A DNA stretch of 64,000 bases from Faecalibacterium prausnitzii (GTDB taxonomy: Bacteria; Bacillota; Clostridia; Oscillospirales; Ruminococcaceae). The DNA lies in NCBI RefSeq assembly GCF_019967995.1, contig NZ_CP065377.1:2790001-2854000 (forward strand), written 5' to 3'. Positions 16,655 to 20,223 of the stretch are shown in pieces. Under the pieces are notes generated by a model. That model was not told the DNA's origin, did not search any database, and saw nothing but the letters and a program-made list of their open reading frames with translations. The position numbers were made by a program, and so were the translations under genes. Numbering within the stretch: position 1 is the stretch's first letter; each line of letters starts with the position of its first letter.

Positions 16655-16730
<76 letters not shown>

Positions 16731-16923: not shown

Positions 16924-18141
16924 ATGGCACGTTTTACTCTTCCCCGCGATCTGTACCACGGCAAGGGCGCGCTGGAAGCCCTGAAGTCCTTCACCGGCAA
17001 AAAGGCCATGATCTGTGTGGGCGGCGGCTCCATGAAGCGGTTCGGTTTCCTGGACCGTGCGGTCAGCTACCTGAAGGAAGCCGGCATGGAAGTCGAGCTG
17101 TTTGAAGGCATCGAGCCGGACCCCTCGGTCGAGACCGTCATGCGCGGTGCCGAGGCCATGCTGAAGTTCGAACCGGACTGGATCATCGCCATGGGCGGCG
17201 GTTCCCCCATTGACGCCGCAAAGGCCATGTGGATCAAGTACGAGTACCCGGAGATCACCTTTGAGGAGATGTGCAAGGTCTTCGGCATCCCGCCGCTGCG
17301 CCGCAAGGCACACTTCTGCGCCATCTCTTCCACCTCCGGCACCGCCACCGAGGTGACCGCATTCTCCATCATCACCGATTACCAGAAGGGCATCAAGTAC
17401 CCCATCGCCGACTTCGAGATCACCCCGGACGTCGCCATCGTCGATCCCGACCTGGCTGAGACCATGCCCAAGAAGCTGGTCGCACACACCGGCATGGACG
17501 CCATGACCCACGCTATTGAGGCTTATGTCTCCACCGCACACTGTGATTATACCGACCCGCTGGCCATCTTTGCCATCCGGATGATCCAGGGCGATCTGGT
17601 GGACAGCTACAACGGCGACATGGCCAAGCGTGATTCGATGCACAACGCACAGTGCCTGGCCGGCATGGCCTTCTCCAACGCGCTGCTGGGCATCGTCCAC
17701 TCCATGGCCCACAAGACTGGCGCTGCCTTTGCAGACTACGGCGCACACATCATCCATGGTGCAGCCAACGCCATGTATCTGCCCAAGGTCATCGCGTTCA
17801 ACGCCAAAGACCCCGAAGCCAAAAAGCGCTATGGCATCATTGCCGACGAGATGAAGCTCGGCGGTGCCAATGACGACGAGAAGGTCCAGCTGCTCATCGC
17901 ACACCTGCGCGGCATGAACGACGCGCTGAACATCCCCCACTGCATCCAGCACTACGGCCCGGATTCCTATCCTGCCGAGCAGGGCTTCGTTCCGGAGGAA
18001 GTCTTCCTGGAGCGTCTGCCGGAGATCGCCAAGAATGCCATCGGCGATGCCTGCACCGGTTCCAATCCCCGCCAGCCCAGCCAGGAGGAGATGGAGAAGC
18101 TGCTCAAGTGCTGCTACTACGATACCGACGTTGATTTCTGA
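16924..18141 (+). CDS. Iron-containing alcohol dehydrogenase
   Basis: The 405-residue group III dehydrogenase has the NAD(P)-binding GGGS motifs (VGGGSMKRFG and AMGGGSPIDAAKAM). Its metal site includes GMDAMTHAIEAY, with the Asp and His ligands, and GIVHSMAHKTGA plus AHIIHGAANAMYLP with two more histidines. Sequence features resemble the dehydrogenase half of bifunctional AdhE, but the aldehyde dehydrogenase half is absent. It likely reduces an aldehyde to an alcohol in fermentation; the substrate cannot be read from the sequence. It is a single-gene unit with its own promoter and terminator. Confidence 0.9.
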   Translation: MARFTLPRDLYHGKGALEALKSFTGKKAMICVGGGSMKRFGFLDRAVSYLKEAGMEVELFEGIEPDPSVETVMRGAEAMLKFEPDWIIAMGGGSPIDAAKAMWIKYEYPEITFEEMCKVFGIPPLRRKAHFCAISSTSGTATEVTAFSIITDYQKGIKYPIADFEITPDVAIVDPDLAETMPKKLVAHTGMDAMTHAIEAYVSTAHCDYTDPLAIFAIRMIQGDLVDSYNGDMAKRDSMHNAQCLAGMAFSNALLGIVHSMAHKTGAAFADYGAHIIHGAANAMYLPKVIAFNAKDPEAKKRYGIIADEMKLGGANDDEKVQLLIAHLRGMNDALNIPHCIQHYGPDSYPAEQGFVPEEVFLERLPEIAKNAIGDACTGSNPRQPSQEEMEKLLKCCYYDTDVDF

Positions 18142-18173
18142 TCCCGATCTTTTCTGAGATTCCTCTTTCCCAT

Positions 18174-18220
18174 AAACGCAGAGCCGCAGACCCTCACCGG
18201 GCCTGCGGCTCCGCGTTTAT
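18174..18220 (+). terminator. Terminator after the alcohol dehydrogenase gene
   Basis: Stem AAACGCAGAGCCGCAG with CTGCGGCTCCGCGTTT (one mismatch), loop of 13 bases, then TTTATTG. Confidence 0.75.
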
Positions 18221-18223
18221 TGG

Positions 18224-18252
18224 TTGAAAGTTGTTTTTCTTTCTGTTATACT
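18224..18252 (+). promoter_or_regulatory. Promoter of the small hydrophobic peptide gene
   Basis: TTGAAA (18224-18229), 17 bases, TATACT (18247-18252). The start site near 18259 gives a leader of about 110 bases that begins GAGAACGCTGTCC. Confidence 0.8.
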
Positions 18253-18331
18253 ACCAAGTGAGAACGCTGTCCATATGGTAGGCGGTCAGCCCCTTCCGCT
18301 TTTTGCGGGGGAGGCGATTTTCTTATATGGT

Positions 18332-18361
18332 TTCCCCCGACGCTTTTGCGAAAGGGGGGAA
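18332..18361 (+). promoter_or_regulatory. Hairpin covering the ribosome binding site of the peptide gene
   Basis: TTCCCCC (18332-18338) can pair with GGGGGGA (18354-18360), closing a loop that itself contains CGC-TTTT-GCG. The G run is the only Shine-Dalgarno-like sequence before the ATG at 18368, so the hairpin would hide it. Confidence 0.55.
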
Positions 18362-18367
18362 TGGCCC

Positions 18368-18472
18368 ATGACGCTGTCGGAAGTCTTACAGTTGCTCGCA
18401 CTGCTTGGTGGTGCAGTTTATGTGACCTTTCAAATCAGTTGGACTATTTTTACACACCTGCATAAGAAATGA
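18368..18472 (+). CDS. Small hydrophobic peptide (34 aa), candidate type I toxin
   Basis: The peptide starts MTLSEVLQLLALLGGAVYVT, spans the membrane once (about residues 6-28) and ends with a positively charged THLHKK tail. Size, hydrophobic core and basic tail are like holin-like and type I toxins of Firmicutes, though the family assignment is from memory only. The stop codon lies inside the stem of the following terminator. A divergent, consensus promoter on the other strand points back at the gene from 18586, as expected for an antisense antitoxin RNA. An upstream in-frame start at 18224 would read through the promoter and is rejected. Confidence 0.65.
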   Translation: MTLSEVLQLLALLGGAVYVTFQISWTIFTHLHKK

Positions 18473-18508
18473 CCGCCCGAAGCTCCTACACTCGGCGGTC
18501 ATTCTTAT
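18465..18508. terminator. Shared bidirectional terminator of the peptide cassette
   Basis: AATGACCGCC and GGCGGTCATT form a stem around an 18-base loop. A T-rich tract follows on the plus strand and TTTCTT on the minus strand, so both converging transcripts could end here. The TGACCGCC arm is also complementary to GGCGGTCA at 18281-18288 in the peptide mRNA leader. Confidence 0.7.
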
Positions 18509-18551
18509 GACTTCACGGAGGAGCTGACCGTTGCCGGACAGCGTTCTCTTT
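18466..18551 (-). ncRNA. Candidate antisense RNA of the peptide gene
   Basis: Its existence is inferred from a strong minus-strand promoter and the shared terminator, giving an RNA of about 85 bases with no reading frame. Its 5' region (GAGAACGCTGTCC, then CGGTCAGC) is nearly the same as the 5' region of the peptide mRNA. The two ends of the cassette are thus inverted repeats. It overlaps the 3' end of the peptide mRNA. Confidence 0.5.
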
Positions 18552-18557
18552 AGTTGT

Positions 18558-18586
18558 ATTATATCATTCAACCATAAAAATTTCAA
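18558..18586 (-). promoter_or_regulatory. Promoter of the candidate antisense RNA
   Basis: On the minus strand, TTGAAA (18586-18581), 17 bases, TATAAT (18563-18558). Confidence 0.8.
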
Positions 18587-18596
18587 CCACAAAACA

Positions 18597-18632
18597 AAAA
18601 AGACACCCCAAAGCCAAACGGCTTCGAGGTGT
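18597..18632 (-). terminator. Terminator after tRNA-Thr copy 2
   Basis: Minus-strand stem GACACCTCGAAGCC with GGCTTTGGGGTGTC (two G-T pairs), then TTTTTTG. Confidence 0.85.
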
Positions 18633-18639
18633 CCTGAGC

Positions 18640-18715
<76 letters not shown>

Positions 18716-18792
18716 ACAATCACAGCTCAATTAGTTTATCATAAAACGCACCGCTTGGCAAGAGGTTTTTGCAAAAAAGTTCGATTTTTCTC

Positions 18793-18830
18793 AAAAAGAG
18801 GTCGTCACGCTGCGTGACGACCTCTTTTGG
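18793..18830 (-). terminator. Terminator of rpoD
   Basis: Minus-strand stem AAAAGAGGTCGTCACGC with GCGTGACGACCTCTTTT, then TTGAG; it lies 10 bases after the rpoD stop. Confidence 0.85.
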
Positions 18831-18840
18831 GTTTTCTTTC

Positions 18841-20223
18841 TTACTCGATCAGACCGTTCAGCAGCGCCAGGCACTTGCGGCTGTGCAGCTTGCGGATGGC
18901 CTTGGCTTCGATCTGGCGGACACGTTCACGGGTAACGCCGAAATCGCGGCCGACCTCTTCCAGCGTGCGGGGGCGGCCATCGTCCAGACCGAAGCGCAGC
19001 CGGATGACCTTCTCCTCACGGGGGGTCAGGCTCTTGAGGGCCTGATTGATCTGCTGGGCCACCATGGCGCGGTCGGCTGCCTTGCCGGGAGCCTCCGCGT
19101 TTTCGTCGGCGACGAAATCGCCCAGCGAGGAATCCTCCTCCTCACCGACGGGGCTTTCCAGGCTGGCCGGCTCCTGCGCCATGCGCTGGATCTCGCGGAC
19201 GCGCTCGACGCTCATATCCATGGCCTTTGCCAGCTCTTCCGGGGTGGGCTCGTGGCCGTTCTGGTAGACCAGCTGGTTGGTGGCCTGCCGCATCCGGTTG
19301 ATGGTCTCGACCATGTGCACCGGGATGCGGATGGTACGGGCCTGGTCTGCGATGGCGCGGGTGATGGCCTGACGGATCCACCAGGTGGCGTAGGTGGAGA
19401 AGCGGAAGCCGCGGTCGCAGTCGAACTTTTCAGCGGCCTTGATGAGGCCGATGTTGCCCTCCTGGATCAGGTCGAGGAATGCCAGATTGTGGCCCACGTG
19501 CTTCTTGGCGATGGAAACAACCAGACGCAGGTTAGCTTCGCTCAGGCTGCGGCGGGCGTTCAGGCCGTCGCGGCGGGTCTTCAGCAGCTCCTGACGGCGC
19601 TCCTCGGTCAGAGGGCCGTTCTCGATCTCTTCCTCAGCCTTCTCTTCCGCTGCCTTTTCCTCGGCATCCTCGGTGGACTTCTCGCCGCCCTCGTCGTCCA
19701 GATCCTCGTTGTAGCTGCGGCTGTTCTCATCCTCTTCGAACGAGAAGCGGGCGCTGTTCTTCTTGATGTACTCCGGCGCACCGTACTTGATGCGGTCTGC
19801 CTGAAGGATGTGTGCTGCTTCGGCACCGGCATGGATACGGCGGCTCAGCTCCACTTCCTGCTCTGCGCTCAGCAGCGGGATCTGACCGATCTGCTTGAGG
19901 TAGTTCTTCACGGGGTCGTCCAGCAGCTCATCCATCGCTGCCTTCAGGTCGGCCGGGTTCTCCTCGGCTTCCTCTTCCTCGTCAACGCCCAGGCCCAGCT
20001 CATCGCTGTTGGCCTCGGCGTTCTCCACCTCGGCAAGGATGCTGTCCACGTCCAGGCTGGCATCCTCTTCCGCCTCGTTGTCCAGAACTTTGATGCCGCG
20101 CTCCTCCAACAGGGTGTAGAGGGTCTCCACATCCATCCGGCACTGCGAGGCCAGCGTTTTGGCCTCCTGTGCGCTCAGGGTGCCTTCGCCTTTCGTCAAC
20201 AGTTCCTTCAAAGTCATGCCCAT
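18841..20223 (-). CDS. rpoD: Primary RNA polymerase sigma factor (sigma-70/RpoD)
   Basis: This 460-residue housekeeping sigma factor has an N-terminal region 1.1-like part (1-100) and region 1.2 ([21 protein letters not shown], about 103-123). Region 2 contains [12 protein letters not shown] and [17 protein letters not shown], and region 4 ends [32 protein letters not shown]. Between regions 1.2 and 2 there is an acidic, low-complexity insertion (about residues 160-205, rich in Glu and Asp). The ATG follows AAGGAG. The conserved region 2.4/4.2 fits the TTGACA/TATAAT promoters seen here. Confidence 0.96.

Follow-up and report, generated by a model that had tools for sequence, protein, structure and literature searches.

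A cassette of about 330 bases in the genome of Faecalibacterium prausnitzii (2.94 Mb, one contig) is, with a probability that we put at roughly two in three, a chromosomal type I toxin-antitoxin system, in which the encoded peptide would probably be a membrane toxin silenced by a constitutive antisense RNA. The system would be of a known kind in an apparently undescribed and widespread form, and its RNA arrangement differs from that of par in a testable way. No description of it was found among the open-licence PMC papers that were listed, one of the listings covering 20 of 8,349. Within the 64,000-nucleotide stretch that was analyzed (the window), the cassette lies between an open reading frame at 16924-18141, which we take to be an alcohol dehydrogenase gene, and a minus-strand tRNA gene at 18643-18715. 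It consists of two convergent promoters, a 34-codon open reading frame, a central hairpin and ends that are inverted repeats. The repeats are identical at 13 of 13 positions in one pair of segments (18260-18272 and 18536-18548) and match at 92% in the other (18283-18294 and 18519-18530), and the arms of the central hairpin were found at 18468-18477 and 18494-18503. Because the repeats are inverted, the two RNAs start alike and are not complementary there.

Table 1. Predicted features of the cassette, in window coordinates.
Feature	Position	Strand	Evidence or remark
Toxin mRNA promoter, TTGAAA-17-TATACT	18224..18252	+	10/12 consensus matches
Left arm, toxin mRNA 5' end (GAGAACGCTGTCC ... CGGTCAGCCCCT)	18258..18294	+	same-letter coupling with right arm
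Leader, four mutually complementary segments A-D	18290..18359	+	predicted fold, 25-leader consensus
Leader segment A, CU-rich	18290-18299	+	pairs with D in window fold
Leader segment B	18305-18316	+	pairs with C in window fold
Leader segment C	18331-18343	+	pairs with D in consensus of 25 leaders
Leader segment D, Shine-Dalgarno GGGGGG	18348-18359	+	can pair with A or C
Putative toxin, 34 residues, single hydrophobic stretch	18368..18472	+	ORF, pS 0.27 / pN 0.05
Peptide stop codon, base of hairpin stem	18470-18472	+
Central hairpin terminator	18468..18503	.	family T-tract stronger in antisense direction
Antitoxin RNA, ~85 nt (ends inferred), 5' hairpin and 3' terminator hairpin	18466..18551	-	fold, RNA model
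Right arm, 3' arm of predicted read-through toxin mRNA, pairs with left arm	18519..18548	+
Candidate second sense terminator, hairpin and TTCTCTTTAG, overlaps antitoxin start	18529..18553	+	T content
Antitoxin promoter, TTGAAA-17-TATAAT	18558..18586	-	11/12 consensus matches

Most of these elements had been proposed in a sequence-only reading of the same DNA, which described a type I-like locus with a gene for a 34-residue membrane peptide, two convergent promoters with 17-base spacers and ends that are inverted repeats, so that both RNAs carry the same first sequence. The open reading frame does translate to 34 residues, both promoters are present with the spacing given, and the repeats match as described above; together with a Shine-Dalgarno sequence that is predicted to be sequestered, the same set of features appears to be kept in relatives.

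The layout recurs well beyond the window. Searching with the peptide matched 15 of the 31 genomes of the genus at 48 places, 30 of which were fetched, and these loci run in the order promoter, left arm, leader with complementary segments, Shine-Dalgarno sequence and peptide with C-terminal lysines, followed by a stop codon at the hairpin base, the right arm and the antisense promoter. The exceptions are one false hit (L040) and two loci that seem to be without a proper start (L029, L037). The comparison of relatives that the sequence-only reading had asked for, by peptide and flanking inverted repeats, came out in its favor. An antisense arm was present at 29 of the 30 fetched loci, a count that depends on an RNA model of that arm which was itself built from them. 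At E up to 0.01 this model had matches in 100 of the 297 family genomes, spread over 58 of 126 genera; in the order, with E limited to 0.001, 74 of 295 genomes and 47 of 148 genera had a match. In the source genome a DNA search gave three clear extra copies (L002, L003, L004), and the RNA model added a further cassette with a peptide (L135), an antisense arm standing alone (L136) and a seventh, candidate match. Further cassettes were found in F. longum and F. prausnitzii records, and the peptide of L014 occurs letter for letter in an F. hattorii contig (L162). A DNA pattern scan of named genomes found at least 120 stretches, of which 80 were listed; the matches listed add Pseudoflavonifractor, Anaerotruncus, Oscillibacter and Lachnospiraceae MAGs as well as the Negativicutes MAGs Schwartzia and Selenomonadaceae, and the RNA model matched 78 of the 80, the exceptions being L195 and a Pseudomonas locus (L209).

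For the comparative analysis two sets of cassettes were compiled. The first used 138 of 199 model matches, after removal of duplicate loci, of lower-scoring matches and of those that mirrored the palindromic terminator on the opposite strand; 112 of the 138 had an open reading frame by a strict rule and 26 had none, and after five doubtful frames were dropped 107 remained, 90 of them nonredundant. The second, with the same exclusions, used 103 of 166 matches, of which 82 had a frame and 21 had none, and dropping four left 78, or 65 nonredundant. The two sets overlap through identical or nearly identical cassettes (e.g., L182/L131, L214/L096, L162/L014). In the second set the stop codon stands at the same offset in 78 of the 82 frames.

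Some loci have an antisense arm without a peptide (L136 at 495-600, L138 at 470-600, L085 at approximately 1501-1602); these antitoxin-like RNAs have promoter and terminator, and one of them is in the window's own genome. In genome G008 the copy before a gene that we take to be dus-like (L056, 1395-2320, minus strand) has both the Shine-Dalgarno sequence and the peptide deleted and still has both arms, the hairpin and the antisense promoter. Several genomes carry tandem copies approximately 350 bases apart (e.g., G244, G253). We also observed arrays of at least three cassettes, mostly approximately 310-380 bases apart and some with different peptides (L115-L119). At two loci an extra arm-like RNA with a promoter, GGCACTGCGACAAGCGGTCAGCCC and a different hairpin end lies beside a cassette (L155 at 2510-2645, L018 at 1851-1949), and is possibly an orphan trans-acting RNA.

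The peptide is a single hydrophobic stretch with C-terminal lysines. Summed over 12 related pairs, three of them identical, pS is 0.27 and pN is 0.05, which indicates that the peptide is under purifying selection and very probably a real gene. A small hydrophobic peptide with conserved coding and an overlapping antisense RNA gene with a promoter and terminator of its own, the latter judged by sequence only, are both what a type I system would have. The window peptide has no match in Pfam or NCBIfam, none to Hol_Tox (PF16935) at E up to 10 and none in the PDB at E up to 1; seven other peptides of the genus gave nothing useful in Pfam and NCBIfam, with one weak, unrelated CDF hit. We count 149 distinct peptides on this RNA frame, 22-48 residues long and very different from one another. 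Among 46 representatives, eight match Hol_Tox at E up to 0.1 (best 1.4e-8), three PepG1, to which the likeness is weak, and two ComI at the same threshold. The RNA arm was matched at all six Hol_Tox places found in the genus, with E below 1e-7 for five of them and 9e-4 for the sixth. Since very different peptides, Hol_Tox places included, stand on the same RNA arm, the frame is, by these sequence comparisons, more conserved than the peptide. Weak matches to the PADLOC 2TM effector (4 and 1 of the 46) and to SLATT_6 (4 and 5 of the 46) were taken as generic transmembrane similarity.

Promoter-like sites are frequent around the cassette, with four in 17800-19000 compared with a mean of 0.4 in shuffled sequence. 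Over 163 of 168 cassettes the antisense promoter has on average 11.3 of 12 consensus bases, and at least nine in 161 of the 163, compared with 8.4 for the sense promoter and 6.7 for random windows; the sense promoter of the window copy, at 10 of 12, is unusually good for the family. The T-tracts at the central hairpin, scored in 82 of the 90 cassettes, are also stronger in the antisense direction (7.2 of 9) than in the sense direction (5.5 of 9), and judged by them the hairpin looks mainly like the antitoxin's terminator. Of the shared bidirectional terminator of the sequence-only reading, the hairpin is present and the sense T-tract is the weaker one, and the covariation described below implies that sense transcripts would read through it. 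Past the right arm the sense strand is T-rich, at 7.1 of 12 positions in 164 of 168 cassettes, compared with 3.3 of 12 past the left arm on the other strand. This tract may be a second sense terminator, but a strong antitoxin promoter that begins with an A-rich stretch could look alike.

Evidence on how the RNAs might work comes from the arms. In a covariation scan of 90 cassettes, same-letter couplings between the two arms are among the strongest signals, next to the pairs of the terminator stem; at one position, for example, 51 C/C and 26 T/T were found among 87 cassettes (12.3 sd). Same-letter couplings between inverted arms amount to Watson-Crick pairs on one strand. The left arms were located by their likeness to the right arm, which favors identity, and more weight is given to permutation tests in which noncognate arms were granted the same best local match. 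Arm likeness is 23.5 within a cassette and 16.6 between cassettes, a difference reached in 0 of 20000 permutations. The preference holds among paralogues of one genome (22.1 versus 20.1, 0 of 20000; 54 cassettes, 14 genomes) and in the second, partly overlapping set, found by terminator and right arm (26.6 versus 20.3, 0 of 20000; n = 65).

Folding of the predicted read-through transcript gives the same picture. For the 79 of 90 cassettes in which a left arm could be aligned, as this set required, 27.7 pairs between the 5' and 3' arms are expected, compared with 8.7 when the 3' arm is shuffled, and the value is higher in 78 of the 79. Without selection for the left arm, 26.9 pairs are expected as against 17.5 with the arms of other cassettes, with the cassette's own arm ahead in 61 of 65. 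Exceptions, in which a cassette's own arm has no advantage over the control, number 4 of the 65 and 1 of the 79.

The isolated differences between the arms also tell the two strands apart. In 141 of the 144 cassettes used for this test, G·U pairing survives the difference in the sense RNA in 188 cases and in the antisense RNA alone in 51, a sense fraction of 0.79 (0.73-0.84 by bootstrap over cassettes, which removes shared ancestry incompletely), compared with 0.61 for noncognate arms (464 versus 295). On fixed alignment columns the asymmetry is weaker and limited to C/T (147 versus 74); the pairwise version with its noncognate baseline is the stronger test. A constraint at the level of DNA is expected to treat both strands alike. 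Because the asymmetry favors one strand, selection seems to act on a sense transcript that extends across the central hairpin. The arms thus appear to co-vary as a 5'-3' stem, apparently that of a toxin transcript reading through its internal terminator.

All three predicted RNAs fold better than each of 200 dinucleotide shuffles (antisense RNA, z = -3.2; short mRNA, z = -4.7; read-through mRNA of the window, z = -8.1), which answers the call for folding of both transcripts in the affirmative. The predicted short mRNA also bears out the suggestion that the ribosome site lies in a hairpin: the Shine-Dalgarno bases 18352-18357 pair with CCCCUU at 18290-18295 of the leader, so that segment A is with D and B with C, and in the consensus of 25 aligned leaders D pairs instead with the later C-run of segment C. 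The predicted unpaired probability of the Shine-Dalgarno sequence is 0.17, compared with 0.29 when the upstream leader is shuffled, and is lower in 80 of 90 cassettes. In these models, therefore, the Shine-Dalgarno sequence is trapped by its own leader. The closing stem adds no trapping, with the Shine-Dalgarno sequence unpaired at 0.18 in the long form and 0.11 in the short form.

The long-range pairing that the sequence-only reading had put between leader and 3' terminator is not supported. The matching sequences GGCGGTCA and TGACCGCC are indeed present, but their pairing is absent from the predicted fold of the short form, fewer than one 5'-3' pair is expected in the short form of 65 of the 79 cassettes, and no coupling between their positions is among the top 60 of the covariation scan. 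The long-range pairing preserved in evolution is apparently that of outer arm with outer arm, and not of leader with terminator. At the window cassette Rfam gave only chance-level matches below the gathering scores, and in eight relatives two sub-threshold matches, both away from the cassette.

Tentatively, and at somewhat less than even odds, we read the cassette as an undescribed, widespread type I toxin-antitoxin chassis of Clostridia, in which many unrelated-looking peptides share one frame and a strand-exchange antitoxin takes the 3' arm from a closed message. The full-length toxin mRNA would probably be closed end to end and inert, like hok and aapA mRNAs, and loss or displacement of the 3' arm would let it refold and be translated. 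The predicted antitoxin complements the mRNA over its 3' part, i.e., the hairpin and right arm, and its own 5' end is a near copy, or mimic, of the 5' arm of the mRNA; it could thereby rival that arm in binding the 3' arm and expose the message to decay. As a weaker second possibility, the CU-rich segment of the antitoxin may also cover the Shine-Dalgarno sequence. The leader is complementary to the antitoxin arm as well (23.0 versus 14.5 shuffled), and several pairings are therefore possible.

A rival reading is a par/fst-like mechanism, in which both RNAs would end at the shared terminator, their loops would pair first and the antitoxin 5' arm would then block the Shine-Dalgarno sequence. 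The convergent promoters and single central hairpin suit such a mechanism, and the antitoxin CU segment does prefer the Shine-Dalgarno sequence of its own cassette, with 3 of 20000 permutations as good overall, 129 of 20000 within the genus and 730 of 20000 outside it. However, the preference is absent among paralogues of one genome, where 18016 of 20000 permutations are as good, and, the repeats being inverted, one arm is not the complement of the other. The same-letter coupling and the wobble asymmetry would be left unexplained, and the window peptide, which contains no proline, has no PXXXG motif; it is not Fst-like, as the sequence-only reading had already stated. A duplex search over the whole mRNA found the cognate antitoxin only slightly better (128 of 20000), with the best duplex over the Shine-Dalgarno sequence in 37 of 90 cassettes, some rows being spoilt by neighboring array copies. 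We consider a par/fst-like mechanism unlikely.

That the arms are kept alike for a transposase, as the terminal inverted repeats of a MITE-like element whose RNAs are incidental, is very hard to credit. The cassettes are multi-copy and intergenic with inverted ends, and the site of the window copy is empty in G008, but no clear target-site duplication was seen there by eye, the repeats begin where transcription is predicted to start, internal to the promoters, and the genome's three other clear copies have diverged (70-78% over matched parts). The peptide, moreover, is under purifying selection, and we rejected the idea on the strand asymmetry of the arm differences (188 versus 51). It is also quite improbable that the peptide is a small membrane regulator, non-toxic and controlled by the antisense RNA. 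Its toxicity is putative, it matches no toxin family in the case of the window copy, and it is kept at the same site in some relatives, all of which would fit a regulator. Against this reading, however, peptides are lost while the antitoxin is retained, the antisense arm accompanies nearly every fetched peptide, and relatives that resemble Hol_Tox, and weakly PepG1, are found on the same chassis.

The genomic neighborhood bears on how the cassettes move. The 3' end of the alcohol dehydrogenase gene was found in 12 genomes of the genus, and a cassette follows within approximately 500 bases only in the window's own. In G008 a close relative, its peptide 88% identical, sits on the gene's opposite side, next to a tRNA gene that by eye has the same sequence. 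We also note that the window's tRNA genes at 16655-16727 (plus strand) and 18643-18715 (minus strand) have the same model score and flank the alcohol dehydrogenase gene in opposite orientation; the cassette lies beside one of these tRNA copies in the window genome and beside the other in G008 (L014), oriented the same way relative to the tRNA. At the dus-like site a cassette is present in at least four genomes. A plasmid search gave no match. Eleven viral contigs of IMG/VR (L276-L286) have the terminator-plus-arm pattern, and the RNA model matches all 11; a DNA search of phages gave one candidate fragment and the phage peptide searches only weak matches. Some cassettes may therefore ride on phages or prophages, and the whole looks like slow turnover with occasional phage carriage, not like an active transposon.

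With both components so small, type I systems easily escape detection. The conserved RNA frame allows candidates to be discovered in bulk in Clostridia, Faecalibacterium included, and one type of locus thereby brings together many peptides, 22-48 residues in length. Should the arm-mimic model be true, the cassette would be a simple RNA switch that can be tested by compensatory mutations.

Among known systems, par of pAD1 shares with the cassette its convergent promoters, a small transmembrane peptide, a central bidirectional hairpin and intramolecular sequestration of the Shine-Dalgarno sequence, as far as the passages of PMC7472228 drawn on here describe it. In that account direct repeats, DRa and DRb, are crossed by both RNAs and make RNA I and RNA II complementary, and the hydrophobic domain has a PXXXG(C) motif. 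In the cassette the peptide lacks the motif, and inverted repeats give both RNAs a common 5' sequence, so the likeness to fst/par drawn in the sequence-only reading does not extend to the RNA logic. With hok/sok and aapA/IsoA the cassette shares local Shine-Dalgarno hairpins and an end-to-end closure of the full-length toxin mRNA, here seen by folding and covariation only and for the predicted read-through transcript. In the sections of PMC6733600 used, the long-distance interaction of those mRNAs traps the Shine-Dalgarno sequence and IsoA3 interacts only with truncated mRNA; the predicted closure of the cassette adds no such trapping, and its antitoxin lies opposite the 3' arm and copies the 5' arm of the mRNA. 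Convergent transcripts that overlap at their 3' ends, by approximately 75 nt in txpA/ratA, are also described for txpA/ratA and sprG1/sprF1, whose toxins are of the Hol_Tox/PepG1 type, in the portion of PMC4147584 consulted, and some chassis relatives match Hol_Tox (PF16935) and, weakly, PepG1, but the window peptide matches neither. The clostridial pairs CD2517.1-RCd8, CD2907.1-RCd9 and CD0956.2-RCd10 of Clostridioides difficile likewise have convergent, overlapping toxin and antitoxin genes; compared by description, in the part of PMC6563280 used, they differ from the cassette in toxins of 50-53 residues and a long complementary region.
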